Source of the DNA: a virus
Length of the DNA stretch: 43,245 nucleotides
IMG/VR virus record: IMGVR_UViG_3300013307_000027
Coordinates: 1 to 43,245 of that record
Strand: one strand, 5' to 3'
In this document: positions 1,366 to 39,923 of the stretch, piece by piece
How positions within the stretch are numbered: the stretch's first letter is position 1
How the letters are laid out: each line of letters opens with the position of its first letter
Made by a program: the position numbers and the translations under genes
The notes under the pieces: model-generated
The model's input: the letters and a program-made list of their open reading frames with translations, nothing else
Database searches by the model: none
What the model was told of the DNA's origin: nothing

Positions 1366-2670
1366 TCATCCCTGCTCCTCCAAAGCGTCGGCCGCATCGC
1401 GTTCGGCTTGGCGGGTCACCGCCAGGGCCATGCCTTCCGCCGCGATGCGAATATCGCGGGGCATGTAGGTATCGAGGATCTTCGTGGTTTCCGCGATCGA
1501 GTGGCCGCTGATCGCTGCGATCATCGGGATCGAGGCGCCGAGGTCGCGCATCCAGCACATGCCCGACCGGCGCAGGTCGCGGAATTGGATTCCGTCGTAG
1601 CGTTTGGCGAGCTGGGTAAGCCGATCGGCCTCGTCATGCTCCTGGCGCAGCGTGGCAGTCTGAGCGCGCCAGCGCAGGTCCTTGACCAAATGTACCACTA
1701 CGGCCCTGAAATCGCGCTGGAAGCGCCATTCCGGGCATTCCAGGCCGGTTTGCGGGTCGGCGATGATGTGCGTTCCGCCGACGCGGCCGCGCCGCGGCGC
1801 CGATATGGCGTTGCGCACGGCTTCGCGCGCGATCGGCGCCAGCGGGATACCGACCGGCGTATCGGTCTTTTCCTGTTCCAGGAACAAGCCGACGACGTGG
1901 CCGCGCTCGTCGCCGAGCGCGCGGCGAGCGTCTCCGCTGATATCGTCGATCCCGCGCATGGTGAAGCTGGTGACCGCGAGCAGATCGCCTTCGCGCTGCA
2001 TCGTGTAGAAGCCGAGCACGCACCCGACCGACACGTGGCGATGGCCGAGCGCCAGCGCCGTGTCGACCAGCAACGGCAGTTCGTCGCGGAGCAGGCGCCG
2101 CTTGCGCGGCTTCGGGCTGGCGACGCGCAGGTTGCGCGCGGGATGGGCGGCGATGTGCCCCTTGTCCTCCGCATACTGCATCAGCACGCCCAGCATCGCG
2201 AGCAGCTGCTTGGTGCGCGTGCGCCGGGAGTCGACTTCGAGCACTTCGACCAGGTCCAGCACCATTTGCCGGTTGAGCTGGCTGAGCAGCAGCTTGCCAT
2301 CCTGTGCCCAGGTTTCGAGCATCCGGAGATAGGAGCTGTAGTTTTTCTGCGTCGACGGCGCGGCATCGGTGAAGCCGCTCGATGTCTTATACTTGCGCAC
2401 CAATTGGCCGAACGTCTCGATCCTGTCGCTGACCGGCGCTTCGATCACGGCCTGCGCCACGGTGCCGTCGACCAGCGCGGTGCGCGCGACGCACGCGGTC
2501 ACCACAGCGCCGGCATTGGCATCGGTGCCCAGCTCGAGGTTTTGCCAGCCGAGCCGGCGCAGGCGCGGGCTGGGCTTCCAATGGCCGACCCACTCGCCGC
2601 CATTCGCCTCCCGCCATTGCCAGGAGAGATAGGTCGCGTGGACGTTGGGTTTCTTGGTGCGGGGCTTCAT
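1366..2670 (-). CDS. int: Tyrosine-recombinase integrase
   Basis: This 434-residue protein catalyses site-specific recombination between attP and the tRNA-Gln attB. The catalytic residues are visible in order: R226 (in YTMQREGD), K268, R367 in the FRDLRRSG box (R364 where many relatives have His), H390 in SGHSIAETT and the nucleophile Y402 in DTYMPRD. Residues about 85-180 look like a core-binding SAM-like domain. The N-terminal 80 residues are probably the arm-binding region. It is the last gene of the leftward operon, 32 nt below the preceding stop, so it may be co-transcribed from the repressor-controlled promoter near 8725. It ends 16 bp from the convergent acyltransferase gene. Confidence 0.95.
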   Translation of the reverse strand: MKPRTKKPNVHATYLSWQWREANGGEWVGHWKPSPRLRRLGWQNLELGTDANAGAVVTACVARTALVDGTVAQAVIEAPVSDRIETFGQLVRKYKTSSGFTDAAPSTQKNYSSYLRMLETWAQDGKLLLSQLNRQMVLDLVEVLEVDSRRTRTKQLLAMLGVLMQYAEDKGHIAAHPARNLRVASPKPRKRRLLRDELPLLVDTALALGHRHVSVGCVLGFYTMQREGDLLAVTSFTMRGIDDISGDARRALGDERGHVVGLFLEQEKTDTPVGIPLAPIAREAVRNAISAPRRGRVGGTHIIADPQTGLECPEWRFQRDFRAVVVHLVKDLRWRAQTATLRQEHDEADRLTQLAKRYDGIQFRDLRRSGMCWMRDLGASIPMIAAISGHSIAETTKILDTYMPRDIRIAAEGMALAVTRQAERDAADALEEQG

Positions 2671-8827: not shown

Positions 8828-9229
8828 TCAGGCGCGCTTGCGTTCCGGGGCGTGGCCGAACGTCGTAACGCTGTCGCGCAGGGCGTTGAAGCCGTGGCGC
8901 AGCTCCGGGCTGGCGGCGCGATAGGCGTCGATCAGTGCGCGCTGATCGGGGGTCAAGGCGCCGCTTGCCTGACTGGCGGGCAACAGGTCACCGGGCAGGA
9001 TATCGAGCGAGCGGCCATCGGGCAGATTGTTGAACGCCTGGGCCAGTGTCACCATCCAGGCCTGGGTTAGCTGGACGTGGCCGTTTTCGAGGTCGCTGAT
9101 CTGCACATTGCTCGTCCCGGCCAGCTCGGCCAGTTGGGCTTGGGTGAGCTTCGCGATTTTCCGCCATTCGCGAATGCGGTTGGGCGCTTCTTTGTCCATA
9201 GCGCGAAACGGTAAGATCACGGCGGTCAT
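8828..9229 (-). CDS. XRE-family immunity repressor (CI-like)
   Basis: The 133-residue product has an N-terminal helix-turn-helix of the XRE/Cro-CI type at about residues 18-75. KLTQAQLAELAGTSNVQISD includes the recognition helix, followed by LENGHVQLTQ. The C-terminal half (TPDQRALIDAYRAASPELRH) is helical and lacks a visible Ser-Lys LexA-like peptidase pair, so it is shorter than lambda CI. Release from lysogeny may need an antirepressor or another signal. It is divergent to the Cro-like gene, with operators between and beside them. It is the best candidate for the protein that binds the ten dispersed TTAGC-N5-GCTAA sites. ATG 9229 is preferred; ATG 9199 is possible. Confidence 0.9.
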   Translation of the reverse strand: MTAVILPFRAMDKEAPNRIREWRKIAKLTQAQLAELAGTSNVQISDLENGHVQLTQAWMVTLAQAFNNLPDGRSLDILPGDLLPASQASGALTPDQRALIDAYRAASPELRHGFNALRDSVTTFGHAPERKRA

Positions 9230-11806: not shown

Positions 11807-13707
11807 ACGGCGACGACGATATCGGTGCCGCGATCGACGCACCGCATGACGCACCGGACTTTCGCGCGCCCGATGGCGAGCCCGGCGCCGAGTATGACGT
11901 CAAGGGACCACCCAAGGATTGCCCGATCGAGCCGCTCGGCTTCCTCAAACAGCGCACCTATTTCCTCGACCATGCCAAGCAGCTGATCGAGCTGGGCACC
12001 GAGATGCGCAAGGGCGAGGTGATGGCGCTGTTCGGCACGCGCCAGCATTGGCTCAACGCGAAATGGCCGACCAAGAAACAGGTGACCGACAAGAAAACCG
12101 GCGAGATCGAATGGGTCATCACCGGCTTCGACCAGAAGGAGTCGCAGCGCGACCTGATCGTATGGTGCGCGCGCAAAGGATTGTTCGACCCGCAAGGCAA
12201 GGTGCGCGGCCGCGGCGCGCATCGCGGTCCGGATGGCGAACTGATCCTGCATTGCGGGTCGACCATCCTGATCGGCGGCAAGCGCGGCACGCGGAACAAC
12301 GTGCTCAAGAGCCAGTTTTTCCAGCCGGGGCTGATCGGCGGTTATGTGTATCCGGCGCACCCCGAGCTGGCGCGGCCCGACGACAACCCCGCGCCGATCC
12401 ATGTCGGCGAACAGGTGCTCGCGCTGCTCAACACGTGGCGCTGGCGCAACGGCGACACTGACGGCTGGCTGTTGCTGTGCTGGATCGCGGCGGCGACCTT
12501 GGGCGGCGCGATCCGTCACCGGCCACACGTGTGGATCACCGGGCCGAGCGGCGCCGGCAAGACGACGCTGCAGCAATTCCTGCGCGAAGTGATGGGCGAT
12601 TGGGGCGTGTTCACCGAGGACGCGACCGAGGCAGGCGTGCGTCAGCTGCTCGACCAGGACACGCTGGCGGTGATGTTCGACGAAATCGAGCCCGACGAAG
12701 CGAACGGCGAAGCGCATATGAAGATCGTCAAGCTGGCGCGGCTGGCCTATTCGGGCGGCGGCGCGATGCGCGGGAGCCAGGACCACAAGGCCAAGCAATT
12801 CGTTGCGCGATCGTGCTTCCTGTTCTCATCGATCCACCATCACGAGCTGCCGGCGCAGGATCGCAACCGCATGGCGATCCTCAATCTCCGCGAGTTTCCG
12901 CCCAAGACCAAGTCGCTGATGTTGCCCAGCACGCTCAAGGCATGGGGCAACCAGCTGCGGCGTCGCATGATCGAGCAATGGCATCGCTATGACGCGACCC
13001 TGGCCGCGTATCAGGCGGCGATGCTGACGCAGGGGTATAACGGCCGCGAGCAGGATACCTATGGCACGCTGCTGGCGTGCGGCGACCTGTTGCTGCACGA
13101 TCAGGCGCCGGCGCATCCCAACGAGATGAGCCCCGACCCGGTGACGGACGAGGATTTGCGCTGCATCACGCGCGTGCGGGACCTCAGCACGATCCTGCAC
13201 CGGGCGCGCGCCGAGGCCGAGGATACGACCGAACGCTGCCTGAAATGGCTGACCAGCGCCACGCTGACCGCCAAGCCCGGCGAGCATCAGATGAACGTCG
13301 GCCGTTGGGTGACGCGCGCGCTGATCGACCTGCGCAACGGCACCGACAGCGGCGCCAAGGCCAAGCTGCGCACGCACGGCTTGCGTATCGTCGGGCTGGC
13401 GCCCGATCATGAGAAGGATAACGGTGCTGGCGGGATCCTTGACCGCCCGCCATCGGTCGAAAGGGCTTTCCTGTCGGTCGCCAACAAATCGAACCAAGCC
13501 ATGCTCAGCCTGTTCGACAAGTCGACCTGGCGCAGCGGCACATGGAACCAGGCGTTGGCGCTGGTGCCCGGCGCCGTCGGGCGCAAGAAGGTGCGCTATG
13601 ACGGGCCGGGCGAGTGGTCGGTGGTGGTGCCGATCGGCGTCGTCATCGACGTGCCGGCGGCGATCGAGGAAGCCGAACAGCTGATCCTGCCGGGTGTTAC
13701 CGGCTAG
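11803..13707 (+). CDS. Phage replicative P-loop ATPase/helicase
   Basis: The 634-residue protein has a clear Walker A motif GPSGAGKTT (residues 247-255) after the strand PHVWIT. A Walker B strand LAVMFDEIEPDE follows near residues 288-299, and a sensor-like stretch FLFSSIHHHELPAQDRNRMA near 345-364 with an arginine pair. The order resembles superfamily-3/DUF927-type ATPase cores of phage primase-helicases. The N-terminal 240 residues and the C-terminal 230 residues are not recognised. Together with the upstream primase it gives the phage a primosome while leaving polymerisation to the host; no DNA polymerase gene is present. Confidence 0.82.
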   Translation: MNGDDDIGAAIDAPHDAPDFRAPDGEPGAEYDVKGPPKDCPIEPLGFLKQRTYFLDHAKQLIELGTEMRKGEVMALFGTRQHWLNAKWPTKKQVTDKKTGEIEWVITGFDQKESQRDLIVWCARKGLFDPQGKVRGRGAHRGPDGELILHCGSTILIGGKRGTRNNVLKSQFFQPGLIGGYVYPAHPELARPDDNPAPIHVGEQVLALLNTWRWRNGDTDGWLLLCWIAAATLGGAIRHRPHVWITGPSGAGKTTLQQFLREVMGDWGVFTEDATEAGVRQLLDQDTLAVMFDEIEPDEANGEAHMKIVKLARLAYSGGGAMRGSQDHKAKQFVARSCFLFSSIHHHELPAQDRNRMAILNLREFPPKTKSLMLPSTLKAWGNQLRRRMIEQWHRYDATLAAYQAAMLTQGYNGREQDTYGTLLACGDLLLHDQAPAHPNEMSPDPVTDEDLRCITRVRDLSTILHRARAEAEDTTERCLKWLTSATLTAKPGEHQMNVGRWVTRALIDLRNGTDSGAKAKLRTHGLRIVGLAPDHEKDNGAGGILDRPPSVERAFLSVANKSNQAMLSLFDKSTWRSGTWNQALALVPGAVGRKKVRYDGPGEWSVVVPIGVVIDVPAAIEEAEQLILPGVTG

Positions 13708-13918
13708 CGTTGCTGCGGCGGCGATCGGCCAGATAATGGACGTCGGCGTGGCGCGGCGAGGTTATGCTTAGCGCGACGTTGAGGAATGCCAGAAACGTGC
13801 TTCGTTCCATCACGTGCGTGACGACGCGACCGTCTATCTCGTTCGTCAAGTGGATCATGCCGCCCTTAGGCTCGATTAGCGGCACAGCGGCGCAAAAGTA
13901 GGTGCGCGTCGCCTTCAT
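13697..13918 (-). CDS. Small hypothetical protein, convergent to helicase
   Basis: The 73-residue product begins MKATRTYFCAAVPLIEPKGG. It has a strong ribosome site, GGGGAGGGG, ending six bases before ATG 13918. Its last codons overlap the end of the helicase gene by 11 bp on the other strand. The sequence alternates strands and short helices (MIHLTNEIDGRVVTHVMERS) and ends basic. Function unknown. No operator is visible upstream, so it may be expressed outside the repressor circuit. The 96 bp between it and the next gene (13919-14014) hold nothing else I can name. Confidence 0.65.
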   Translation of the reverse strand: MKATRTYFCAAVPLIEPKGGMIHLTNEIDGRVVTHVMERSTFLAFLNVALSITSPRHADVHYLADRRRSNASR

Positions 13919-15215: not shown

Positions 15216-15252
15216 GTCGGCCTCCGTTCACGATAAACTGACAGCCAATTAT

Positions 15253-15299
15253 TTAGCTATCTGCTAAGTTCTCTAACTTAGCGATATGCTAAATGTCAA
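15253..15299 (-). promoter_or_regulatory. Leftward promoter with operators E and F
   Basis: Two operators lie 25 bp apart centre to centre: E TTAGCTATCTGCTAA (15253-15267, identical to operator A) and F TTAGCGATATGCTAA (15278-15292). A perfect -35 box TTGACA (15299-15294, minus strand) is followed by a 17-nt spacer containing F and a weak -10, TTAGAG (15276-15271). TAAATA over E is another possible -10, but spacing is less clear. The promoter would drive the genes from 15215 down to 14015. Confidence 0.6.
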
Positions 15300-15765: not shown

Positions 15766-15795
15766 TTGCGCTGTGACTTCGCGATACGCTAAGTC
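15766..15795 (+). promoter_or_regulatory. Rightward promoter with operator G
   Basis: TTGCGC (15766-15771), an 18-nt spacer and TAAGTC (15790-15795) surround operator TTCGCGATACGCTAA (15778-15792), which has one mismatch to the perfect palindrome. The -10 matches the one at 9293. An ATG follows nine bases later at 15805, again suggesting a leaderless message. It could also supply transcripts reaching the terminase genes 0.75 kb downstream. Confidence 0.5.
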
Positions 15796-15804
15796 GCTGA
15801 CCCC

Positions 15805-16539
15805 ATGGGGCGGGATCAGTCGAGCATTTGCGCTGCAGCGCTTCGCGATCCGAATAAAATAGGGGGCGGATATGTCGCGCCCGCGTCTCAATGCCCCTTC
15901 GTCGCGAGGGGCGCGGCGTTCCTGGGGGATTTTCTAGCGCGATCGGCGTCGGCGGGTGCAGCTGCGCTGCTGCAGCGCGCCGAGCTGGGCGAGGGATTCG
16001 GCCAGGCGCATCAGATCCCGCGCATCGTGGAATATCAGGCACTTAGCCGCTCTGACGTGGTGACCGTCGCATGGCGCCCGTCGCACAGCAGGGCTCAAGC
16101 CTCTGATAACTGGCCGAAATGGCCTGCCTGTCGTCTAATCGCCAATTTGACCGGTGGCCGGCTGGGAGCGATCGAGGTCGGCGCCGGTCGCGCGCGCCGG
16201 ACGATTCGCCAAGGCCCCCCGGCTCCCCCCTTTGGCCCGCGACCCAAACCTATGACCGTCGCGTCCGGCAGACCCAGCCCTAGCGAAAATTGTCTTCCGT
16301 TCTCGACCCGTTCCGCTTGCGTGACCGAGCGAGGCGGCGAACTTTCATTTGGGCGCATGGGGTCGGGGGTTTGGGCCGCGCTGGCGCGCGATCAGCGTTC
16401 AGGCGTTGGCCTGGGCCGAAAGGGCTTGGTGCTGATCAACGGGGTCGGGGGTTGGCAACCGCTCGGGGTCCGACGTGAGAGGGCGAATCCGGCCAAGCTG
16501 CTCGCGATCGGCGCGGCTGTCAACGGGGTGGCGCGATGA
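15805..16539 (+). CDS. Uncertain open frame before the terminase genes
   Basis: A 244-codon frame runs from ATG 15805, just after the operator-G promoter, to a TGA that overlaps the terminase start (ATGA). Both junctions look natural. The inside does not: much of residues 120-190 is low-complexity Pro/Ser/Arg text, and third-codon-position G+C is below that of the neighbours. A shorter version from ATG 16357 (60 residues) has better codon use. It may be partly an untranslated leader. The whole interval 15216-16535 has no other strong gene candidate except the small minus-strand frame listed separately. Confidence 0.3.
   Translation: MGRDQSSICAAALRDPNKIGGGYVAPASQCPFVARGAAFLGDFLARSASAGAAALLQRAELGEGFGQAHQIPRIVEYQALSRSDVVTVAWRPSHSRAQASDNWPKWPACRLIANLTGGRLGAIEVGAGRARRTIRQGPPAPPFGPRPKPMTVASGRPSPSENCLPFSTRSACVTERGGELSFGRMGSGVWAALARDQRSGVGLGRKGLVLINGVGGWQPLGVRRERANPAKLLAIGAAVNGVAR
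15934..16086 (-). CDS. Small minus-strand frame, possible 50-residue protein
   Basis: From GTG 16086 to TAG 15934 the minus strand encodes VRRAPCDGHHVRAAKCLIFH followed by a leucine-rich amphipathic helix (DLMRLAESLAQLGALQQRSC) and an Arg-rich tail. Codon third positions are about 80 percent G or C, as in the real genes here and unlike the overlapping plus frame. The Cys/His-rich start (C-D-G-H-H then C) could bind metal. No ribosome site is visible, and the direction opposes the downstream operon. It is a candidate only. Confidence 0.4.
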   Translation of the reverse strand: MRRAPCDGHHVRAAKCLIFHDARDLMRLAESLAQLGALQQRSCTRRRRSR

Positions 16540-23311: not shown

Positions 23312-23368
23312 CGTCTTCGCGATGCGCTAAAAATCACGTTGACAACCTAGCGTATCGCGAAATATCAA
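23308..23368 (+). promoter_or_regulatory. Late promoter region with operators H and I
   Basis: Two similar units occur in tandem. TTGACG (23308-23313) is followed after 2 nt by operator H, TTCGCGATGCGCTAA (23316-23330). TTGACA (23339-23344) is followed after 2 nt by operator I, CTAGCGTATCGCGAA (23347-23361), then the -10-like TATCAA (23363-23368, 18-nt spacer). The second is the better promoter. Repressor on H and I would block transcription of the capsid gene and beyond. The rest of the 285-bp gap to the capsid gene holds the terminator at 23395 and a structured leader. Confidence 0.6.
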
Positions 23369-23596: not shown

Positions 23597-24541
23597 ATGA
23601 CGGTTCCCGGTACTCCGGACGCAATCGAAACGCTCCGCACAGTCTCGTACACCAAGGCAGTTGGTTTCCAGCTCGCCGAAATGCCCGGCAAGTTGCGCCC
23701 GCTCACCGCGCGCATCACCAGCCTGACCGACAAGTCGATCCAGATCGAGGATCGTTTCGACGATCTGCAGGTTTCGGAGATTGTCGGCCGCCACACCGAC
23801 ACGGTCCATACCGACGCCGACATCGAGCGCCGCTGGATTCACAAGCCGCGCCCGCAGCGCGTATCGGTCCTGCTCAGCAAGGACGATATGGCGGCGACCG
23901 AGATCGATCCGAAGGCGCCGATCGCGCGCCAATCGGCAGTCGCGGTGCGGCGTGCGCACGACGATCGCTGGCTGCAGGGCTTTTACGGCAACGCCTATAC
24001 CGGCGAAACCGGCACCACGGCGGTACCGTTCAAGTCGGCGAACATCATGGCGGTCAACACCGGCGAAGCCGCCCCTGCGGGCATCACGCTCAACAAGCTG
24101 ATCGCGATGCAGGAAACGATGCGCCGTAATCTGGTCGATACCGAGATCGAGAAGCCGGTTGCGGTCATCACGGCCAAGCAAATCACGGACCTGCTCAAGA
24201 TCAATCAGCTGCAGAACCGCGATTACAATCCGCAGCTCGAAACCGCGCTGCAGAGCGGCCGGCCGATGGACTTCATGGGCTTTACCTGGGTGCCGTCCGA
24301 GATCGGCAACTCCAAGGCCTATCCGATCGGTTCGACGCTGTCGGTCGATGGCAGCGGCTATCGGCGCGTGCCGTTCCTCGTCGCATCGGGGATGTACGGG
24401 AATATGTGGGAAGAGTTCTTCGCCCGCATCACCGAGGAGTCGACCAAGGAATTCGACTGGCAGGTCTATGCGCGGACCACGGCGGCCTTCACGCGGCTGA
24501 ACGAGGACAAGTGCTACCAGATGCTCTGTCTGGAAAGCTGA
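23597..24541 (+). CDS. Major capsid protein
   Basis: This 314-residue protein, found directly after the scaffold, is the main coat protein. It opens MTVPGTPDAIETLRTVSYTK and contains blocks typical of a HK97-like coat in podoviruses of the BPP-1 kind. These include SIQIEDRFDDLQVSEIVGRH, HTDADIERRWIHKPRPQRVS, the ARQSAVAVRRAHDDRWLQGF helix with FYGNAYTGETG, and a C-terminal FDWQVYARTTAAFTRLNEDK. The ribosome site GGGGGAT precedes ATG 23597 by six bases. It is preceded by a 230-nt leader holding a promoter, operators and a terminator. Confidence 0.9.
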   Translation: MTVPGTPDAIETLRTVSYTKAVGFQLAEMPGKLRPLTARITSLTDKSIQIEDRFDDLQVSEIVGRHTDTVHTDADIERRWIHKPRPQRVSVLLSKDDMAATEIDPKAPIARQSAVAVRRAHDDRWLQGFYGNAYTGETGTTAVPFKSANIMAVNTGEAAPAGITLNKLIAMQETMRRNLVDTEIEKPVAVITAKQITDLLKINQLQNRDYNPQLETALQSGRPMDFMGFTWVPSEIGNSKAYPIGSTLSVDGSGYRRVPFLVASGMYGNMWEEFFARITEESTKEFDWQVYARTTAAFTRLNEDKCYQMLCLES

Positions 24542-28956: not shown

Positions 28957-31016
28957 TGGCTTTGCCCCCGACCTATCAGCCGCAGGGCGGCCCGCGCACG
29001 ATCGCGCTGCCGACGCCCGATCCCAACGCATCCGGCGTCGGGCTGGCGAACGACGTCGCCCAGGCCGGTGATCAGCTGTTCCGATCGCGCATGGCGCATC
29101 TCGACAGCGAGCAGCGCGTCACCCAGATCGAACATCAGACGCAGCTGATCAAGGATCAGCAGCAGGATTTGTCGGAAGGCGCGGCGCTCGCGGCCGGGCT
29201 TGCCAAGCTCGAAGCCGATACGAAGGTGTATGGCGCCAGCCAGCTGGCGTCGAGCAGCGAAGCCGGTGCCCAGGGCTATGCGAAGTCGGTCAGCGACTAT
29301 TGGGATAAGGGCGTCGACACGCTGATGGCGGGCGTCACCAGCCCGCGCGTTCGGACCCGCGCGATCGCGCAGATCGCCGAACCGCAGTCGCGCATCCTCG
29401 GCGATGCCCAGCTGACCGAGCTTAGCGCCGGCATCAGCCGGATGCAGAACGATGCCAGCACGGCGGTCGACACCCAGGCCGCACTGGCGCGCGCGGACGG
29501 ACTGACCGGCGGCAAGGGCGACGCGCTGATCGGGCGGCTCAAGGAATTGCGGACGACCGTCGCCAATCTGCCCGGCGGCGAGGACTGGCAGAACAAGGCC
29601 TATCAGGAATGGTCCGGCACGGTGGTGCGCTCCTATGTGCAGGGCGTCACCGAACGCAATCCCGATGAGGCAATGGCGATCGCGCGCGATCCGACCTTTG
29701 CCACCATTCTCGGCCCGAAGGTGTCCGACGCGTTGATTGGCGAAGCGCAGGCCGAAAAGAACCGGCAGGCGGCGGCGGCGCGGGCGGCGGAAGCGACGCA
29801 ACGCGCGGCGACCAAGGAATCGCTGGCGACGGTCAAGGCCAATCTCGATACCGGCGCCGGCTCGCCGGGCGATTGGGAAGCGCTGGCACAGGGCTATGAG
29901 AAAGTCGGCGATACGTCGTCGGCGGCGACGGCGCGCGCGAAGGGCACCGAAATGTCGGCGGCGCTGCAATATCGCAACCTGCCATTGCCGCAGCTCGATC
30001 AGCAGATCGCCGATTTGCAGGCGGTCGGCGCCAAGGGCGCGCTGACCCCGAAACAAGCATCGACCCTCAATGGGCTCAAGGATTTGCGGCAGCAAAGCGC
30101 GGAACGGCTCAACTCGCCGGGCGGGGCGCTCAAGCAATATGTGTTCGCGACCGGCCAGGCGCTTCCGCCGCTCGATCTCACCGATCCCGCTTCGATGAAG
30201 GCGCGGGCGCAGCTCGCCGCTGGCGCGGCGCGCAGCTATGGCCGGTTCACCGTCGAGCCGCTGACCGACGCCGAAGTGCCTGGCCTGCAGGCGATGATGA
30301 AGGGCGACACGACGCAGAAACTGAAAGCGCTGTCGGTCATCAGCGAATTCGGCGACCCGCGCGCGATCGAGGGAGCGGCGCGTCAAATCGCGGGGAACGA
30401 CGATCGCGGGTTCCGTGTGGCCGCAGCCTATTACACGCTGCCCGGTGGGCACGATGCCGCGCGCGACATCCTGCGCGGCCCCGAGGCGCTCAAGGCCAAT
30501 CCCAAGGTCTTTTCCGATGCACCGGCCAAACGAATCTTCGGCGAGTATCTCAACTCAGCGGTCGGCATGCCGCCCGATTATGCGGCTGATCGGCTGGAAG
30601 CGGCCAAGGATATCTATGCGGCACGGATGACAGCGGCCGGTCGGACGCAATGGGATGAAACCGAGTTCCGCAAGGCAGTCGAAGCGGCGAACGGCAGCTA
30701 TACGCAGAACGGCATTACTTATAGCGGCACCGCCACATTCAAGGGGCAGCGCGTCATCCTGCCGCCAGGCTGGACGGGTGAAGGCCTGTTCAAGCGGCTG
30801 GCGCGGGCGACACCGCAGGATTGGAACAAGGCGAGCCTCACCGGCACGCCGATCTGGCCGGGCGGCGCTCCCGTCACGCTCGATCAAATCCGCGACCTCG
30901 TACCCGTCAGCGTGGGCGGCACGCGCTACGTGCTGCGTCTGCCCAGCGGCAACTATCTGCCCTCGAACAAGAGCGACAAGTTCGTGTTCGATGCGCAGCG
31001 GGTGCCGTGGCGATGA
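28956..31016 (+). CDS. Internal virion (ejection) protein, gp15-like
   Basis: The 686-residue product begins MALPPTYQPQGGPRTIALPT, a proline-rich start common among second ejection proteins. The rest is almost wholly alpha-helical (DSEQRVTQIEHQTQLIKDQQ; PLPQLDQQIADLQAVGAKGA) with a closing beta-like segment (GQRVILPPGWTGEGLF and SVGGTRYVLRLPSGNYLPSN). It would lie inside the capsid along the core and leave with the DNA to build the periplasmic tunnel. Start and stop overlap the flanking genes. Confidence 0.8.
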   Translation: MALPPTYQPQGGPRTIALPTPDPNASGVGLANDVAQAGDQLFRSRMAHLDSEQRVTQIEHQTQLIKDQQQDLSEGAALAAGLAKLEADTKVYGASQLASSSEAGAQGYAKSVSDYWDKGVDTLMAGVTSPRVRTRAIAQIAEPQSRILGDAQLTELSAGISRMQNDASTAVDTQAALARADGLTGGKGDALIGRLKELRTTVANLPGGEDWQNKAYQEWSGTVVRSYVQGVTERNPDEAMAIARDPTFATILGPKVSDALIGEAQAEKNRQAAAARAAEATQRAATKESLATVKANLDTGAGSPGDWEALAQGYEKVGDTSSAATARAKGTEMSAALQYRNLPLPQLDQQIADLQAVGAKGALTPKQASTLNGLKDLRQQSAERLNSPGGALKQYVFATGQALPPLDLTDPASMKARAQLAAGAARSYGRFTVEPLTDAEVPGLQAMMKGDTTQKLKALSVISEFGDPRAIEGAARQIAGNDDRGFRVAAAYYTLPGGHDAARDILRGPEALKANPKVFSDAPAKRIFGEYLNSAVGMPPDYAADRLEAAKDIYAARMTAAGRTQWDETEFRKAVEAANGSYTQNGITYSGTATFKGQRVILPPGWTGEGLFKRLARATPQDWNKASLTGTPIWPGGAPVTLDQIRDLVPVSVGGTRYVLRLPSGNYLPSNKSDKFVFDAQRVPWR

Positions 31017-33688
31017 GCGGCCCGAACGGCCAGGCACGGTCACTCGGCGACTTCTACGATACCAGCGACCTGTCGGCATTGCCGACCGCGACGGCGGCGG
31101 ACCAGCCTGCCACGACCAGTGAAATCTGGGCCGCCTCGCGTGTCGCCGCGTCGGGGGATCGCGAGGATACGTATCGCCAGCGGATCGACAGGATGTACGG
31201 CCCGATCGTCGAGAAGCTGAACGACGGCAAATGGTGGTTTCAGAAGGTCTATAACCCATCGGTCGAGCTGGACACGGCCGACGGCGAAAAGCGCGTCTGG
31301 TACATGATCGACCAGGCGCGAAAGACCGATCCGAATTTCCTGCAGGATGTGGCCGGCAAGGATCGCGACGATCTCTATGCCAGGGCGCTCGACCGCGACA
31401 AGGTGAGCATCGCCAAAGCGCAGGAAACGATGGCCCGCGGCCGTGGCCTCTTGCAAGGGACGGTCGGATTTCTGGGCGGCGCGTACGAGCAGGGCATTGC
31501 CCCCGTTCTTGCGGGCGATGCGCCGACATCGACGGCGGGGCTGTTCGCGGGCGGGCTGGGTGGCCGCACGGTGGTTGGACGGATCCTGAGCGAAGGCGCG
31601 GTGAACATGGGGGTGACCGCCGCGCTGCAACCGCAGATCGCGGCGAACCGCGCCGAGCTGGGCCAGACCATGACGGCCGGCGAGATCGCCGCCAATATCG
31701 GTTTGGCCGGGGTGATCGGCGCCGGTGTGCAGGGCGGTATCGAAGGGGTCGGCGCGGCCTTCCGCGCCCGCGTCCCCATCACGGCGATGACCGAAGCGGA
31801 GCGGGGCGCGGTCGACATGGCGGCACGGGACGCGGCGGTCGATGCCGTTAATCCGTTCGGGCCGGGCGCCGGCAGCGACGCGCATTTCGCCCGGATGGAC
31901 GCGACGCTGAAAGCGGCCGAACTCGGCGCGCCGGTCGGCAGCTTGCCGGATATGCCGGTCGCCGCCACGCGCGCGCCGGACGCCGCCAATCCCGCGATGG
32001 CGCCCCGCGAGCAAGTCAAGAGCCTGATCCGATCGGCCGAGTCCGCCGGCAACGATAGCGCGGGCGCCACCACGTCGACCGCGTATGGGCGCTATCAATT
32101 CACCAAGGGGACGTGGAAGCGGCTGTACCTGCAGCGGTTCGGGCGCGGCGGCCTGACCGACGCCGATATCTACGCCAAGCGCGGCGTGGGCCAGACGCAG
32201 GAAACGCTGATGGATGACCTGTTGCGCGAGAATTCGAACGCGCTCGCGCGCAACGGCATCCGGCAGACGTCGGGCAATCTCTATCTGCTCCATTTCGCGG
32301 GCGAGGCGGACGGCATCAAGCTGCTCACCGCATCGCGCGACGCGCCGATCGAAACCGTCATGCATGCAGGATCGATCAAGGCCAATCCCGCGCTGTTCGG
32401 CCCGAACGCCAAGAACCGGATCACGACAGTTGGCGAGCTGATCGACTGGGCGGATCGCAAGATGGGCGGCAGCGGCGGCAATGCCGGTCCGATGCTCGAT
32501 CGCGGCAGCTTCGCGACCGATGACGAATGGCGCACGGCGCAGGCGCAAGTCGACGCCGACGAAGCGACCCGCGCGATCGTCGCCCGCAAGAATGCCGAAA
32601 TCAGCGGGCCGGAAGGCCCTGACTTCGCGGAGGTCACCGGCAGCGAAGCGCGCCGCGGCGAACCCGACGCACCCTTGACGCCGTGGGAGGCGAGTCCGCC
32701 GTCGACCATCGACCCGCCCTTATTGCCCGACCTTGCCCCGGCGCCGCGCCGTGGTGCGCGTGCGCTACCGGTGCGGACCCAACCGAGCGATGTGGTCGAG
32801 TTCCTCGCCGATCGCGGCGGCATCGCCGACAATGAAGGGCACGCGCTCGGCCGCAGCGGCCAGGGCGGCCGCGCGATGGGCGATGCGTTCGCCTATGGAT
32901 CGGGGCGGCTCGTCCGCAAATCGGGCATGTCGATCGACGCGGCGGGCGAGCTGTTGCACGAAGCCGGTTATTTCACCGATCGCCCCACCACAGCCGATGT
33001 GCTCGACCTGTTGGAGCGCGCGGTCAACGGACGCGAGAAGATCTATCCGTTGGCCGACCATGCCGACATGGTCGAGCGCGCCCGCGTGCGCCAGATGGCC
33101 GACGACACCGGCTATGCCGCGCGTACGGCCGAGGGGCTGGGCATCGACCCTCAGACGGAACCGGAATTGTTCGACGATGTGATCGCGCGCATAAGCGACG
33201 GCGCCGAGCCATGGGATGCGTTCGAACAGGCGATCTATGCGCGCCACGATGCGACGCTGGCGCGCGCGGCACAGGAAGGCGGGAAACCCTATGAGCACAC
33301 AATCGACTATGTCCCCGGCTTTGGCGACGAAGAAGCGCACGGGGTTTCGCGGCGACCTGTTGACGAAAGCGGCGGCGGACTCGACCCTGAGCCAGCCCAT
33401 CCGGGACTCGGCGGAACAGACCTTGCGCTGGAAAGCGCTGCTGGACGCGAATCGCCCGGCCTGAAAGCGTTCGATCAGCCGCACCAGGGCGAAGGCGCCG
33501 AACGGACAATCGAGAGCCTGCGCCACGACATCGACATGCGGATCGAACACGAGCCGGACGCGCTCTATTCGCCCGCGACCGATGAAACGCCGGCACGCAC
33601 TATCCGCGAAGTGCTGGACGATATCGACGCCGACAAGGCCGCGATCGAGGCGGCACGCCGTTGCATGGTGCCAGGGGGTGGCGAGTGA
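31013..33688 (+). CDS. Internal virion protein with lytic transglycosylase domain
   Basis: The 891-residue product probably cuts peptidoglycan during DNA entry. ATG 31013 is chosen because ATGA overlaps the previous stop. Residues about 328-490 form a lysozyme-like transglycosylase: SLIRSAESAGNDSAGATTST holds the catalytic Glu (near 342), followed by AYGRYQFTKGTWKRLYLQRF and a later NLYLLHFAGEADGIKLLTAS. The N-terminal tail carries ARSLGDFYDTSDLSALP (residues 8-24), which recurs in the opposite-strand gene at 36186. The C-terminal 400 residues are low in recognised domains and include a helical, acidic end. It combines the roles of T7 gp16-type proteins. Confidence 0.85.
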   Translation: MSGPNGQARSLGDFYDTSDLSALPTATAADQPATTSEIWAASRVAASGDREDTYRQRIDRMYGPIVEKLNDGKWWFQKVYNPSVELDTADGEKRVWYMIDQARKTDPNFLQDVAGKDRDDLYARALDRDKVSIAKAQETMARGRGLLQGTVGFLGGAYEQGIAPVLAGDAPTSTAGLFAGGLGGRTVVGRILSEGAVNMGVTAALQPQIAANRAELGQTMTAGEIAANIGLAGVIGAGVQGGIEGVGAAFRARVPITAMTEAERGAVDMAARDAAVDAVNPFGPGAGSDAHFARMDATLKAAELGAPVGSLPDMPVAATRAPDAANPAMAPREQVKSLIRSAESAGNDSAGATTSTAYGRYQFTKGTWKRLYLQRFGRGGLTDADIYAKRGVGQTQETLMDDLLRENSNALARNGIRQTSGNLYLLHFAGEADGIKLLTASRDAPIETVMHAGSIKANPALFGPNAKNRITTVGELIDWADRKMGGSGGNAGPMLDRGSFATDDEWRTAQAQVDADEATRAIVARKNAEISGPEGPDFAEVTGSEARRGEPDAPLTPWEASPPSTIDPPLLPDLAPAPRRGARALPVRTQPSDVVEFLADRGGIADNEGHALGRSGQGGRAMGDAFAYGSGRLVRKSGMSIDAAGELLHEAGYFTDRPTTADVLDLLERAVNGREKIYPLADHADMVERARVRQMADDTGYAARTAEGLGIDPQTEPELFDDVIARISDGAEPWDAFEQAIYARHDATLARAAQEGGKPYEHTIDYVPGFGDEEAHGVSRRPVDESGGGLDPEPAHPGLGGTDLALESAAGRESPGLKAFDQPHQGEGAERTIESLRHDIDMRIEHEPDALYSPATDETPARTIREVLDDIDADKAAIEAARRCMVPGGGE

Positions 33689-36189
33689 GCCTGAAGAACT
33701 GCATTCCGGGCATGGTCGAGCGCGGCGAGATCGACAAGGCGCGTGCGGCGCGGATGGGGAAATTGTTCGACCAGCTCGAACGCCATTATCGGATGAGCAT
33801 GGCGCCAGCCGCGGCGACCGCGCAAGCGAGCGAAAGCACGCTGGTGCAGCTCGCGGCCGAGGCGGCATTGAAGGAACGCCAGACCTTGCTGTCGGTCGCG
33901 GCGCGCGATCGGGCCGTTACCGACCTCACCCGGTACAAGGGCAAGTCGACCTATGCCGGTATCCGCGCAATGCTCGACGACGATCTGCGCGCGCCCTATG
34001 AGAATATCACGCGGCGCACCGAACAGGTCGAATTTCAGGCGCAGGCGCGGATCAGCGACTTCATCCAGCGCCATCGCCGCACCTTCCTTGGCACCGCGAG
34101 CGACAAGGCCGGGATGCTCGACATCGTGCGCGAGATGCATGGCGAAAGTACCGGCAACCCGCGCGCGGCCACCTTTGCCGGCGCGATCGCCGACGTGTTC
34201 GAGGATCTCCGCTTGCGCTTCAACGCGGCCGGCGGGGCGATCGGCAAGCTCGACAATTACTTTCCGCACCGCTGGAACACGGCCAAGGTCCGCGCGCTCG
34301 GCCAGGGCGAGGCGGGATATCAGGCGTTCCGCGCCCTCATGCTGCCCGAACTCGACGTTGCCCGGATGCGCGATCCGATCAGCGGCGGCGAGCTGACCGC
34401 CGAGCGGCTCGAGGAAGCGATGCACGCGACCTATGAGAATATCCGCACCGGTGGGCTGACCGGAGAGGCGACCGGCGGTTTCAGCGCGGGCGGGATGCTG
34501 GCCAATCAGCGCGCCGAAACCCGGTTCCTCCATTTCAAGGACGCCGAGGCCTGGCTGCGCGTCCACGATCAGATCGGCGAGGGCGACCCGTTCAGCGCGA
34601 TCATGCATCACATTCGCGGCATGGCGGACGATATCGCCACGATGGAACGGCTCGGGCCGAACCCGGACGCGACGATGCGCTATCTGCTCGATCACGCCGA
34701 TCGCGGCGCCGCCCAGGCCGATACCAAAGTGTCGCGCGCGGCGACCGGCACGAGCGGCGATCGTTGGGCGACCGAGCAATTGTGGCGGTTCAAGCGCGGC
34801 GACCTCAACACGCCGGTCGAGTCCGAAAGCTGGCTGGCGGGGCCACCGGTGGCCGTCACCAAGACGCTGCAGGGCACGCGCAACCTGATCACCGCGTCGA
34901 TGCTGGGATCGGCGCCGCTGTCGGCGATTAGCGATACCTATACCCAGATCATGGCGCGGCGCATGGCAGGCCTGCCGACCAGCAAGGTGATGATGAGCTA
35001 TCTGCGCCAGCTCAACCCGCTGTCGGCGGCGGATCGCGACTTGGCGGTGCGGCTTGAACTCGGCGCGCGCAATGCAAGCCATACGCTGCTTGCCGCGTCG
35101 CGCTATTTCGGTTCGCTGGCCGACAAGCCCGGCTGGACGGCGGTCGTCGCCGACGACGTTCTGCGGCTGTCGGGGCTCAACGCCTTGACCGAAGGCGGGC
35201 AGCGCGCGCTCGGCGTCGACTTCCTGGGCGAGCTGGGCGCCAATCGCGACGTCGCGTTCGCCGCGCTCGACAAGAATTTGCGCGGCAAGATGGAAGAGGC
35301 CGGGCTGACATCGGCGATGTGGGATACGATCCGCAAGGCGGAACCGGAGAAAGCGCGCGGCGTGGCGTTCGTGTCGCCACCCAATGTCCGCGCGGCCGAT
35401 CGGGAAGCCGGCGAGCGGCTGATGGACCTGGTGCTGCGCACCACGGCCATGGCGGTGCCCGAGGCGACCGCGACGACGCGGGCGCTATTCACCGGCGGCG
35501 CGCGGCCGGGGACATGGGCGCGCGAGGTGCTGACCAATTCGGTACAGTTCCGGTCGTTCTCGGTTGGGTTGATGATGCAGCAGGCGCAGCAGATCGCGCT
35601 GTTGCCAAACCTGTCGAACAAGCTCGCCTATGGCGCACGCTTCTTCATCGGCTTGACGATGTTCGGCGCCCTGACGATCCAATTGCGCGAGCTGGCAAAG
35701 GGTCGCGACCCGGTGCCGATGGACCAAAAGGATTTCTGGGAAAAGGCCGCCCTGCAAGGCGGCGGCATCGGGATCATCGGCGACCTGCTCAACTCAGCGA
35801 CCGATAGCCGGATCGGCAGCATCGGCGAGTTCTTCGGCGGGCCGATGGTCAGCGTCGGCAGCGACGTCAAAAGCGCAGTCACCAGTGCCTTGCCGCACAC
35901 CAGCCCGAACGGCGATGTGCGCCCAGGCAATCCCGGCGCGGCGATCGTCAAGCTCGGCAAGCGCTACACGCCGGGCACGAACCTCTGGTACTGGCGCGCA
36001 GCGTTCGAGCATATGGTCATGGATCAGCTCGCGCACGAGATCGACCCGGATTATTCCCAGCGCGAAGAGCGCGTGCGGCAATGGGCAGCGCAGAACGGAC
36101 AGGGGCTGTGGTGGGAGCCGGGCAATCCCACGCCGACCCGCGCGCCGAATGCGTCGAATGCGTTGGGAGCGGAGAACCGGGCGCCCTAG
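33685..36189 (+). CDS. Large internal virion (ejection) protein
   Basis: The 834-residue product starts at GTG 33685, overlapping the previous stop (GTGA). It opens VSLKNCIPGMVERGEIDKAR. Long helical stretches follow, with a conserved-looking YFPHRWN segment near residue 192 and a hydrophobic region (SNKLAYGARFFIGLTMFGAL, about 652-671) that could span a membrane. The C-terminus (YTPGTNLWYWRAAFEHMVMD) is the pattern I know from the very large ejection proteins that end in YxPG-x-LWYxR. The neighbours make it the third internal virion protein. Confidence 0.83.
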   Translation: MSLKNCIPGMVERGEIDKARAARMGKLFDQLERHYRMSMAPAAATAQASESTLVQLAAEAALKERQTLLSVAARDRAVTDLTRYKGKSTYAGIRAMLDDDLRAPYENITRRTEQVEFQAQARISDFIQRHRRTFLGTASDKAGMLDIVREMHGESTGNPRAATFAGAIADVFEDLRLRFNAAGGAIGKLDNYFPHRWNTAKVRALGQGEAGYQAFRALMLPELDVARMRDPISGGELTAERLEEAMHATYENIRTGGLTGEATGGFSAGGMLANQRAETRFLHFKDAEAWLRVHDQIGEGDPFSAIMHHIRGMADDIATMERLGPNPDATMRYLLDHADRGAAQADTKVSRAATGTSGDRWATEQLWRFKRGDLNTPVESESWLAGPPVAVTKTLQGTRNLITASMLGSAPLSAISDTYTQIMARRMAGLPTSKVMMSYLRQLNPLSAADRDLAVRLELGARNASHTLLAASRYFGSLADKPGWTAVVADDVLRLSGLNALTEGGQRALGVDFLGELGANRDVAFAALDKNLRGKMEEAGLTSAMWDTIRKAEPEKARGVAFVSPPNVRAADREAGERLMDLVLRTTAMAVPEATATTRALFTGGARPGTWAREVLTNSVQFRSFSVGLMMQQAQQIALLPNLSNKLAYGARFFIGLTMFGALTIQLRELAKGRDPVPMDQKDFWEKAALQGGGIGIIGDLLNSATDSRIGSIGEFFGGPMVSVGSDVKSAVTSALPHTSPNGDVRPGNPGAAIVKLGKRYTPGTNLWYWRAAFEHMVMDQLAHEIDPDYSQREERVRQWAAQNGQGLWWEPGNPTPTRAPNASNALGAENRAP

Positions 36190-36428
36190 CCGCGGGCGCG
36201 CAGCCAGAAGATCAGGCAGCAAATGAACAGGAGTGCGCCCATTCCGCCAATCGCTGCGGGCGGCATTAACGGCTGCGGCTGTGGTTTGTCAGCCACGGTG
36301 GCCAGTGGAAGCGCCGACAAATCGCTTGTGTCATAGGAATCACTAAGACTTCGAGCTTTTGAGATAGGCGTCGGCGTAGCTGCTGGCGTAACGCCGCAAC
36401 CTCCAAGCTGGGTACATTCGTCGCCCAT
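36186..36428 (-). CDS. Small tail-anchored membrane protein sharing a peptide with an ejection protein
   Basis: The 80-residue product starts at ATG 36428, with AGGGGGTG seven bases upstream; the longer forms lack a ribosome site. Residues 25-49 contain ARSLSDSYDTSDLSALP and continue similarly, 20 of 25 identical to residues 8-32 of the transglycosylase internal virion protein. The DNA has diverged, so the peptide seems selected. Residues about 57-76 form one C-terminal membrane helix (AIGGMGALLFICCLIFWLRA), leaving the peptide in the cytoplasm or periplasm. It is convergent with the ejection gene (4-bp overlap of stops). Inferred role: a lysogen or early protein that mimics the ejection protein, perhaps for superinfection exclusion. 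Confidence 0.7.
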   Translation of the reverse strand: MGDECTQLGGCGVTPAATPTPISKARSLSDSYDTSDLSALPLATVADKPQPQPLMPPAAIGGMGALLFICCLIFWLRARG

Positions 36429-36484
36429 CTTCACCCCCTTCGTTCCGCTGGGCGGCATATCATAGCGCCGCCGCGAAATCACAT

Positions 36485-36499
36485 TTAGCGCATCGCGAA
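36485..36499. promoter_or_regulatory. Operator J
   Basis: TTAGCGCATCGCGAA is the exact reverse complement of operator H, 13 kb away. It lies between the small minus-strand gene and the tail-spike gene. No clear promoter box flanks it in either direction (only a weak minus-strand TAAATG). It may therefore work as a roadblock to transcription rather than a promoter switch, or control the small gene at 36428. The stretch 36429-36611 holds nothing else clear. Confidence 0.55.
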
Positions 36500-36611
36500 A
36501 TCGCTTGCCGATAATTGACGGATTCGGCTAAGTAGGCGCCGATCAGACAGCCGGCGACTTCGCCCCCGTCCGCTGTCCGCACGGCGCCATGCGTCATGAT
36601 GGGGGCGGGGA

Positions 36612-39600
36612 ATGACGGTAGCGACGTCGAGCATCGACGCGATCACGGCGTGTAACGGCGCCACCACCGTCTTTCCGGTCAGCTTCCCGCTGATCCTGCC
36701 GAGCGACCTAAAAGTCTATCTGCTCACGTCGGCGGTACCGGACCTCACCGGCTTGACGCCGCTCGTGCTGGGCGACGACTATACGCTGTCGGGCGATTAT
36801 AGCGCCGGCACCGCGTCGATCACGACGTTGACCACATACCCGGCCGGCCGCTGGCTGTACCGTATCCGCGCCACGCCGGTGGTCCAGCCGGTCGACGTCC
36901 AGAGCAACAACATCCAGGCGAAGCCGCTTGAGTCCGGGCTCGATCGCCCGATCCTCATCCTGCAGGAATTGTGGTCGGCGCTCGGCCGGCTCACTGCGCG
37001 GGCGTTACTGTTCCCGGCGAACGAAAGCGGCGCCACGCTGCCGTCGGCCGCGGCGCGGGCGAACACGCTGCTCGGCTTCGACGCGTTCGGCGCGATTAAG
37101 ACCTATACCCTGGCCCTGTTCAAGGGCGACAAGGGCGATCCCGGCGCGAACATCATGGCCGTGGGGCCGTGGTCGACGTTCGAAGGGCTCACGATCCCGA
37201 TCGGCACCGACATGGTGCAGACGTCCGACAGCCTGGCGGCCGGATCGAGCACCGGCACGGCGTCGGCGAAGTACAAGCTTGATCCGGAGCAGACGCAGTA
37301 CACGGCGAAGATGCAGGCCTATATCAGTGCCGCTGTCACGCCGGGCAACCCTATCGCCAATGCTCAGGCTTCCATGGACGCGCTGCAACGCTATTGGCGC
37401 CGCAAGAGCGCCAACGGCCGGTGGTTCACGCTGTGCGAGCCGGAGCCGTGGTCGAGCATGTTCGGCACGCCCGGCGATGGCGGCCAGGCCTATGACAACA
37501 GCATGTCGGGCACGGACGTCTGGGCCAACCTGCAGGCGTTCATCGACTATTGCTGCTACTTCCAGAAGTGCAAGGGGCGCATCTCGGCCGGTACGCACCG
37601 CGTGTCGCGCGGATTGCAGCACGGCTATGGTCAGGGCGGCTATGTCGGCGGCGTGTTCGAAGGCGCTGGGCAGGCCTATTCCGGCGGCTCGGCCTTCCCC
37701 GGAACCACGATCGTCTGCGATACCGATCAGGACCCGATCCTGAATATCAGCGGCGACCGCGATGTGGTTTGGGAAGGCGTGTCGTTCGTCGGCAAGCTGT
37801 CCAAATGGTTGCTCGAAAAGACGATCGCCTACCCATCGTCGGCGCCGGTGGCGGGATACGATTCGCTCGACCCGCAAGCGTGGGTCGCCGATTATCTCCG
37901 CCCCTCGCAGGATGGGCAGTACAATCCGTACGCATGCGTGACGCTCGGCGCCTATGACGGCGCCAAGCCCAGTTCCGGCCTGTGGGCGCAAAGCACCGGT
38001 TACGGCGTCGGCGGGAAATATCGGGCAAACGGCAATGTCTATATGTGCGTCCAGTCCGGGACGTCGGCTGCCACCGGAACCGGACCATCCGGCACCGGCT
38101 CCGCGATCGTGGATGGCACGGCCGCCTGGCGCTATCTCGGCGCCTGGGATGGAGTCGATGGCGGCCTCTACGTCGCCTATCGCCAGCCCTACCGCCCGGC
38201 CTGGCTGATGGACCCAGGGCCGGAAGCTTATGGCAATTTCTATTACGGCAGCTTTGCGACCTTCAAGCATTGCACGTTCCGCGGCGCGCATGTCGGGCTG
38301 ATGATGAAACCCGGCACCAATCCTTCGCAGGATGATTTCCTGTCGTTGGAGCGGTGCAACTTCGTCGAGTGCGCGTTCGGCTTCAGTGCCGGCAACCACC
38401 AGCTTCGCAGCCTCAACATCCAATCGTGCAATTTCGGCATCCTGCAATGCGCGATCACGAACAACACGCACGGAATACAGTCCGGAAGCTTCAAGGCGGG
38501 CCACATCAATGCCTGCGGTTTCGGCGCATCGGTCGACGTGTTCCGCACCGACAGCTCCTATGGCGAGCCGCTCGTGTTCACGGCCTGCTATTCGGAAGGG
38601 CAATTCCGTCTCGGCCAAATCTTCGGCAGCGCCGCCTATGTGGAAGGCTTTTCGCCTTTATTCCAAAGCTGCGAATGGTCGTTCTCCGGCGTCAACATTG
38701 CGAGAGGCCGCGCGCCACGACAGCTTTATAACTACTTTGACGGCGATCCGAACGTCAATGAAACGAGCGCAAGCGGTAGCCCCGGCGGGCCGCTGTTCAT
38801 CAATTGCCGGATCAACGTCGACGGCGTGTTCGGATGCTTTGTCGAGGGCGCGAAGTTCATCAATTCGCAGATCTACAATTACGACAACGGCACCGGGACA
38901 ATCGACCCTTATCTCGCCGCCTTCGACAATGCGTGCGCGGGCGGTCTGATCGTGACGGGTTTGGAATATCGCCATCAGGATCAAAACCTGAGGTTCCTTG
39001 CCCGCGATCTCGATACCGGTGTTCCGATCAGGGGCTGTTTCACGGCGCCTGGCTATCGCTGGAGCGACCGACAAACGGGCATTCCAGCCATGGTGCAGAC
39101 CGTACGAGCGAAGAGCGGCGTCGCCTATGAGGAATTCGCCGTCCCGCAAGAGGGGGCGTACCTTCTGTCGAAGGCGAGCGGCGTGCCGAGTTTCGTCAGC
39201 GCGGACCCGACCGAGATCAAGATTGTCTTTGCCGGGTCGACCCAGACCACCAATGCCGATCTTAACGGCTTCGGACCGGGCTCGATCCTGCTCGAAAGCA
39301 CAACGGGCACGGTGTTCGCCGTGCGCTACTATGACGACGCGACCGACACGCTCTATGCGGTGGCGCGGAACAATTACAAAATCGTCGGCGGGGTCAAGAG
39401 CTTCGTCTTCCCGATCTCCTTGACAGTCGGAAACTTCGCCTTCCTGCACGCGCGCAATTACACGCCGGCCACGCCGTTGTTCGGCGATTTTCAGGCGAAC
39501 GTGACGGCGACGGGCACCAATGGCTCCCCGAACCTGACCGCCGTTACCGGGACGTTGACGCCCGGCATGGCGCTCACCCATGCCAATATTCCGGCGGGCA

Positions 39601-39923
39601 CAACCGTGCTCAGTGTCAACGGCAATACGGCGGTGATGACGGCGAACGCCACGGGCGCCGTCTCGGGATCGATCACGGCGCCGACGACGATCGCCAATGT
39701 CGGCCGGAGCGACGGCGCCGGCGCCACCATCACGGGCAGCATCGCCGTCGGTGATTATCTCGTTAGCCCGCCCGAGTTGCGGGCGTACGCGCCGACAACG
39801 ACCAAGGTCACGGCGCGGGCCAACGGAAATCCCGGATCGATCACGATCGATCAGAACGCGGCGATGACGATCAATCGCACGCGTCTGCAATTTTTCCGGC
39901 GTCCGACGCCGGCCAACGTGTGA
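36612..39923 (+). CDS. Tail spike/fibre with beta-helix domain
   Basis: The 1103-residue product is the main receptor-binding protein. Its first 140 residues (TVFPVSFPLILPSDLKVYLL; GDYTLSGDYSAG-like strands; PILILQELWSALGRL) match the virion-attachment domain common to podovirus spikes. A short collagen-like KGDKGDPGA (about 171-179) follows. Residues about 285-800 fold as a right-handed parallel beta-helix (many short N-x-G-type strands; CTFRGAHVGLMMKPG), interrupted at about 445-512 by a carbohydrate-binding-like insert (YRANGNVYMCVQSGTSAATG; TAAWRYLG). The last 300 residues are beta-rich. Such spikes often cut capsular or O-antigen polysaccharide, but catalytic residues cannot be named. 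A G-rich ribosome site precedes ATG 36612. Confidence 0.88.
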   Translation: MTVATSSIDAITACNGATTVFPVSFPLILPSDLKVYLLTSAVPDLTGLTPLVLGDDYTLSGDYSAGTASITTLTTYPAGRWLYRIRATPVVQPVDVQSNNIQAKPLESGLDRPILILQELWSALGRLTARALLFPANESGATLPSAAARANTLLGFDAFGAIKTYTLALFKGDKGDPGANIMAVGPWSTFEGLTIPIGTDMVQTSDSLAAGSSTGTASAKYKLDPEQTQYTAKMQAYISAAVTPGNPIANAQASMDALQRYWRRKSANGRWFTLCEPEPWSSMFGTPGDGGQAYDNSMSGTDVWANLQAFIDYCCYFQKCKGRISAGTHRVSRGLQHGYGQGGYVGGVFEGAGQAYSGGSAFPGTTIVCDTDQDPILNISGDRDVVWEGVSFVGKLSKWLLEKTIAYPSSAPVAGYDSLDPQAWVADYLRPSQDGQYNPYACVTLGAYDGAKPSSGLWAQSTGYGVGGKYRANGNVYMCVQSGTSAATGTGPSGTGSAIVDGTAAWRYLGAWDGVDGGLYVAYRQPYRPAWLMDPGPEAYGNFYYGSFATFKHCTFRGAHVGLMMKPGTNPSQDDFLSLERCNFVECAFGFSAGNHQLRSLNIQSCNFGILQCAITNNTHGIQSGSFKAGHINACGFGASVDVFRTDSSYGEPLVFTACYSEGQFRLGQIFGSAAYVEGFSPLFQSCEWSFSGVNIARGRAPRQLYNYFDGDPNVNETSASGSPGGPLFINCRINVDGVFGCFVEGAKFINSQIYNYDNGTGTIDPYLAAFDNACAGGLIVTGLEYRHQDQNLRFLARDLDTGVPIRGCFTAPGYRWSDRQTGIPAMVQTVRAKSGVAYEEFAVPQEGAYLLSKASGVPSFVSADPTEIKIVFAGSTQTTNADLNGFGPGSILLESTTGTVFAVRYYDDATDTLYAVARNNYKIVGGVKSFVFPISLTVGNFAFLHARNYTPATPLFGDFQANVTATGTNGSPNLTAVTGTLTPGMALTHANIPAGTTVLSVNGNTAVMTANATGAVSGSITAPTTIANVGRSDGAGATITGSIAVGDYLVSPPELRAYAPTTTKVTARANGNPGSITIDQNAAMTINRTRLQFFRRPTPANV

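Follow-up and report, generated by a model that had tools for sequence, protein, structure and literature searches.

Why would a temperate phage carry, in a small gene that reads against its late operon, a second version of a peptide from its own ejection protein? The question is raised by the window, meaning here the whole stretch of 43,245 nucleotides that was analysed, a 43-kb virus held in IMG/VR as record IMGVR_UViG_3300013307_000027. Residues 8–32 of its internal virion protein (IVP) and residues 25–49 of a small putative membrane protein are identical at 20 of 25 positions. Coordinates, residue numbers and this count had been given in a preliminary description of the DNA, and all were correct on recheck. 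The same pair is present in a sister phage, IMGVR_UViG_3300047445_000240, which is collinear with the window and about 85% identical to it in the DNA of the late region. The pair is real, conserved and rare, and the following sections consider what it could be for.

The phage and its internal virion protein

The window phage is a temperate podovirus. Profile matches identify an integrase (1366..2670, minus strand), 87% identical in the sister phage and marking the temperate lifestyle, a helix-turn-helix repressor (8828..9229, minus strand), a head–tail adaptor, a PHROG 376 tail protein, a PHROG 418 internal virion protein, the transglycosylase IVP and a PHROG 684 protein. The latter is encoded by the last ejection-type structural gene (33685..36189, plus strand) and is related to its counterparts in phiV10, SPN1S and BcepC6B, its nearest relatives being those of two faecal phages and of Sphingomonas and Sphingopyxis prophages. 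Judging from these relatives, the host is probably a sphingomonad. Further downstream lies a large tail fibre/spike-like gene (36612..39923, plus strand), for which no Pfam match was found. At the other end of the genome, a tRNA-Gln gene occupies positions 44–117, near the record end and close to the integrase gene; DNA at 96–239 is common to the sister phage, and an attachment site possibly lies near this tRNA gene.

The IVP itself (891 aa; 31013..33688, plus strand) possesses a transglycosylase domain, as its residues 340–524 match PHROG 4067 (E = 6e-17) and its residues 315–448 match solved phage lytic transglycosylase structures (gp144, 3bkh; E = 1e-11). Its family and its gene order with the PHROG 418 and PHROG 684 genes point to a role in ejection.

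Sequence comparison delimits the N-terminal peptide of the IVP, ARSLGDFYDTSDLSALPTATAADQP, at residues 8–32 (31034..31108, plus strand). The motif FY[DE]..LP.A..D.P is common to the IVPs of Sphingomonas and Sphingopyxis prophages, with FYDLDGPPTLPIADRPEDMP at the same place in a Sphingomonas turrisvirgatae prophage (L044) and FYELEGPPALPVAQDVDDMP in a Sphingopyxis italica prophage (L045). The residues Y, LP, A, D and P do not vary among the six peptides compared, and more distant IVPs keep little beyond the prolines at the place of the motif, where the alignment is uncertain. No copy of the motif outside the IVP was found in the L044 and L045 prophage loci. As these two other sphingomonad IVPs have the motif without a copy, it is in the IVP that the motif has its original task. 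The predicted IVP structure is a poor model (mean pLDDT 55) in which residues 1–26 score below 50 almost throughout, and this N-terminus is probably an exposed, disordered tail. Between the sister phages, the IVP motif (L004 6605–6679 against window 31034–31108) has 10 of 25 codons identical, compared with 10.3 expected if independent; the motif codons are no closer than chance, whereas the DNA on either side is about 85% identical.

A likeness held at the level of the peptide

In the small protein the copied peptide reads ARSLSDSYDTSDLSALPLATVADKP, and sequence comparison places it at 36282..36356 on the minus strand. A chance match is ruled out both by the sister phage and by shuffling, the Smith–Waterman score being 103 and that of 2000 shuffles of the small protein at most 59. 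When 30 residues of the small protein were used as a query against the window record, only two places matched, and the IVP copy had an E-value of 2.8e-9. It had been proposed that the two coding DNAs differ strongly and that the likeness is held at the peptide level, and this is borne out: 46 of 75 nucleotides, six of 25 third positions and three of 25 codons are identical, whereas about 8.9 identical codons would be expected from independent draws of the phage's codon usage.

Pairwise comparisons extend this picture, identical codons at matched residues being mostly at or below independence, except that the sister copy slightly exceeds it (10 identical codons where 7.9 are expected, and 9 where 8.3 are expected). 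With so few identical codons, close to or below the number from independent draws, there is no support for gene conversion or a recent copying event. Synonymous sites keep almost no trace of shared ancestry between the peptide copies, and because these sites are near-random while the residues are kept, the peptide itself is apparently under selection. The small proteins agree with the IVPs at 17–21 of 25 positions and with each other at 16 of 25; that they are at least as close to the IVPs as to one another is what an IVP serving as reference would produce.

The sister pair consists of an IVP with ARSISDFYDTSDLSALPTATVADQP and a small protein in which ANDLSSFYDTNDLSALPTATASDVPRPASIM is followed by a helix and RRGR. 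This small-protein homologue (L003 3323–3511) has diverged from that of the window, the peptide being identical at 16 of 25 residues and the rest at 10 of 36 (P = 0.008). It nonetheless keeps FYDTNDLSALPTAT, the C-terminal membrane helix and the Arg-rich tail, and in both small proteins 16 residues separate SALP in the peptide from the helix.

A small putative membrane protein on the opposite strand

The small gene (36186..36428, minus strand) starts with ATG at 36428 and encodes a putative single-helix membrane protein of 80 aa. The sequence AGGGGG, resembling a ribosome-binding site, lies upstream of the ATG (36434..36439, minus strand) and also precedes the TTG start of the sister gene. The gene is directly convergent with the PHROG 684 gene, and in both phages its stop codon overlaps the ejection-protein stop (CTAG). 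Its conservation in the sister phage argues for the reality of the gene, which a codon model trained on the window phage does not recognise because of its atypical codon use. The GC3 is 0.60 for the window gene, 0.84 for the sister gene and 0.81 for the IVP, which suggests that the window copy may have come from a phage outside the known set. The small protein has no family match in PHROGs, Pfam, NCBIfam or PADLOC, and no sequence similarity to SieA or to any described exclusion or defence family was found for it. An LGGC near its N-terminus could be read as a lipoprotein signal, a reading that was rejected since there is no hydrophobic signal stretch.

Near the C-terminus, residues 58–76 form a predicted membrane helix, AAIGGMGALLFICCLIFWL (36201..36257, minus strand), followed by RARG. 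Helix hydropathy is 2.34 in the window and 2.61 in the sister phage; the N-terminal tail holds three positive and six negative charges in the window and one and six in the sister, and the C-terminal tail two and three positive charges, respectively. In each of the two homologues, the sequence thus predicts one strong C-terminal helix with a charge bias. By the positive-inside rule, the acidic N-tail and the Arg-bearing C-tail predict an N-out/C-in orientation in which the copied peptide would face the periplasm. The protein had previously been called tail-anchored, which is apt for the C-terminal position of the helix, but the charges predict an orientation other than the usual cytoplasmic N-domain.

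Operators and regulation

As previously noted, the small gene reads antisense to the late operon and sits next to an operator, now seen as a pair upstream of the gene. A repressor-type operator of the TTTAGCN5GCTAAA family, TTTAGCGCATCGCGAAA (36484..36500, no strand assigned), is conserved in the sister phage, and a second, weaker operator-like site with the right half GGCTAAG (36516..36532, no strand assigned) lies 32 bp from it; the pair and its spacing are kept in both phages. Altogether the window contains 15 TTTAGCN5GCTAAA-like sites where 5.5 are expected, a number reached in none of 100 shuffles. Several of them flank the repressor gene, whose product is the likely reader of the operators. 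The pair may govern the small gene, the oppositely oriented tail gene, or both. A sigma-70 scan, which covers alphaproteobacterial promoters poorly, found no promoter for the small gene.

Sites of the same type occur elsewhere in the window. At 23315–23362, a pair overlaps a promoter-like sequence, TTGACA-N18-TATCAA, upstream of the gene at 23597–24541, which suggests that the repressor may directly control this late structural gene. Others, at 15252–15293 and 15777–15793, lie between minus-strand genes ending near 14922 and a plus-strand gene at 15805.

A cargo slot behind the last ejection-protein gene

The small gene occupies a slot that is bounded by the last ejection-protein gene on one side and by the tail gene on the other. 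Aligned with blastn, the window and its sister show similarity up to 36203 and again from 36476, the gap being the small gene. With conserved flanks, such a gap means that the small gene was replaced or diverged fast, and its presence amid a late region of about 85% identity is what a cargo gene open to exchange would show.

Related phages and prophages, compared at their corresponding loci, mostly lack the small gene. In 48 of 86 scored loci fewer than 200 bp separate the PHROG 684 gene from the next large gene, and the other 38 have a gap of 200–1500 bp; in 19 of these 38 the gap contains a frame that encodes a helix or a lipobox, a rough tally made without proper gene calling in which some short-frame matches are doubtful. 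Membrane proteins are clearly present in L046, L055, L062, L065 and L068, as are lipoproteins in L050, L055, L060 and L070. Slot coordinates are 12491–12913 in L046, 12490–13060 in L055, 12494–12916 in L065, 12507–12878 in L062 and 12443–12880 in L050. In alphaproteobacterial prophages, the small membrane proteins and lipoproteins of the slot are varied and mostly without a family, the L055 lipoprotein matching Cor very weakly (E = 0.08). Taken together, the slot genes resemble a reservoir from which candidates for exclusion could be drawn.

Distribution of the pair

A search of the databases for the same pair in other phages, as had been suggested, yielded one, the sister phage. Three peptide searches of IMG/VR returned this phage only, plus one unrelated stretch, and pattern scans of IMG/VR likewise gave the sister phage and unrelated stretches, one of which reads YDTIDLSALPAP in a different context. 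With tblastn, the small protein had no match in 50,697 phage records and the IVP peptide none in 72,556 plasmid records. Among 398 genomes of the family of a Sphingomonas prophage host, one strong match was obtained, the L044 IVP; weak matches of alignments A2 and A6 in these genomes were taken as noise, nothing being there in the four weak A6 matches inspected. A genome-contig collection was also scanned with the PHROG 684 protein, a scan covering prophages in which a PHROG 684 gene can be recognised. When all reading frames within about 150 related loci were searched against one another, the window and the sister phage were the only two with the pair.

The pair is accordingly known from two genomes, both in the virus contig collection. 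The null phage and plasmid searches and the IMG/VR scans reject the idea of a widespread low-complexity peptide, which would have spoken against the preliminary interpretation; so would a homologue of the small protein without the peptide, and the sole homologue found keeps it. Nor was there a sign of a general copying habit in this phage group, no other convincing pair of an ejection protein and a small frame being found in the loci, in P22 SieA or in phiV10.

What the copied peptide could do

We give even chances to the reading that the prophage expresses the 80-aa protein as a superinfection-exclusion factor, encoded in a sieA-type slot and mimicking a docking motif of the ejection protein. 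The fuller claim, that a prophage blocks the DNA entry of its kin through a membrane-anchored copy of its own ejection protein's docking motif, is held somewhat more tentatively. The small protein would insert N-out in the inner membrane and hold the copy of the IVP motif about 16 residues above it. The ejection protein of an injecting relative would dock, through the same motif, on a periplasmic or inner-membrane partner, perhaps a membrane protein of the host or a second ejection protein. If the prophage copy already filled the docking site, the conduit would stay unassembled and DNA entry would fail. That the motif is a docking site is suggested by its conservation at a probably exposed N-terminus, and expression of the small protein in lysogens, its partner and exclusion itself would be parts of the same proposal. 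Mimicry for exclusion explains together the copy, the membrane anchor, its predicted side, the slot and the operators. The preliminary description had offered a decoy and the binding of a common partner as separate ideas; they are close to one mechanism and draw partial, indirect support from the sister pair, the constrained peptide, the predicted periplasmic side and the sieA-type slot with its repressor-type operators in a temperate phage.

The main rival is that the peptide is a cytoplasmic assembly tag by which both proteins bind the same phage part (portal, core or other internal protein), the small protein being a minor virion component or an assembly factor. The probable exposure of the motif at the N-terminus of an internal virion protein and the location of both genes in or beside the late region speak for it. 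We nevertheless consider it unlikely, since the small gene is antisense to the late operon and behind repressor-type operators, the N-out charge bias would put the peptide on the wrong side for assembly, and related phages and prophages do without the gene. The same absence from most relatives, together with the position of the peptide outside the catalytic domain, makes it rather improbable that the small protein helps the phage in the producing or the receiving cell, as a membrane landing site recruiting the partner of the ejection protein or as an inner-membrane tether of the transglycosylase that, for example, regulates its lysis activity, even though placing a transglycosylase-linked motif at the membrane would fit a role in lysis or entry.

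Exclusion might also proceed by self-association, the peptide binding the incoming ejection protein and poisoning an oligomeric conduit instead of blocking a partner from the host or elsewhere. The evidence for mimicry serves this version equally and work on P22 SieA favours direct interference with the ejection-protein conduit, but no sign of self-association was seen here and the motif is short and probably disordered, so that we regard it as very improbable. Least credible is a chance duplication of the 5' end of the IVP gene, fused to a membrane helix and leaving a functionless peptide. The restriction of the pair to two phages and the atypical codon use of the window copy would suit such an accident; against it, synonymous sites are randomised while residues are kept, and the sister version has diverged elsewhere but retains core, spacing and helix.

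Little is known of the way in which short-tailed phages pass their DNA across the periplasm and the inner membrane, or of where their ejection proteins dock. If mimicry for exclusion is true, the motif would mark on the map where an ejection protein docks at the inner membrane, and the copied peptide could serve as a direct probe and ready-made competitor for finding the partner. Should kin be excluded in this way, it would constitute a minimal, new form of superinfection exclusion.

Comparison with known systems

In the epsilon15-like phage phiV10, opposite-strand genes also lie between a PHROG 684-type gene and the tail fibre gene. They differ in their products, hypothetical proteins and one with a Bro-N domain, among which no convincing copy of a peptide was seen. 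HK97 gp15 and Ltp of the Streptococcus thermophilus phage TP-J34 are prophage-encoded superinfection-exclusion morons, a membrane protein and a lipoprotein that target an injected conduit protein. To our knowledge, neither carries a copied peptide of its target. Unlike the protein proposed here, they act on tape measure proteins of long-tailed phages; Ltp-type proteins are described in PMC3952083 and HK97 gp15 is cited in PMC13190303. SNIPE is likewise a membrane protein at the injection site, associating with host entry proteins and the tape measure protein (PMC13190303), but it is a membrane-bound nuclease with a large recognition domain, which the window small protein does not have.

A parallel in gene position is P22 SieA. 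SieA has 164 aa whereas the window protein has 80 aa and a single helix, no family match joins them, and exclusion, which has been shown for SieA, is a proposal for the window protein. No peptide common to SieA and gp16, or to SieA and the examined part of gp20, was found, and mimicry is thus without precedent in SieA. What the two systems share is the arrangement: in a temperate podovirus, the gene for a small membrane protein, predicted in the window to sit in the inner membrane, is encoded on the opposite strand and follows the last ejection-protein gene directly, with the tail gene (the tail spike gene in P22) beyond it (window 36186–36428, P22 sieA 13336–13830); sieA starts its slot 22 bp from gene 16. 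SieA acts through the ejection proteins to block the injection of DNA, and the authors of that work weigh direct interference with the conduit and, as an alternative, occlusion of a host inner-membrane partner (PMC10883804).
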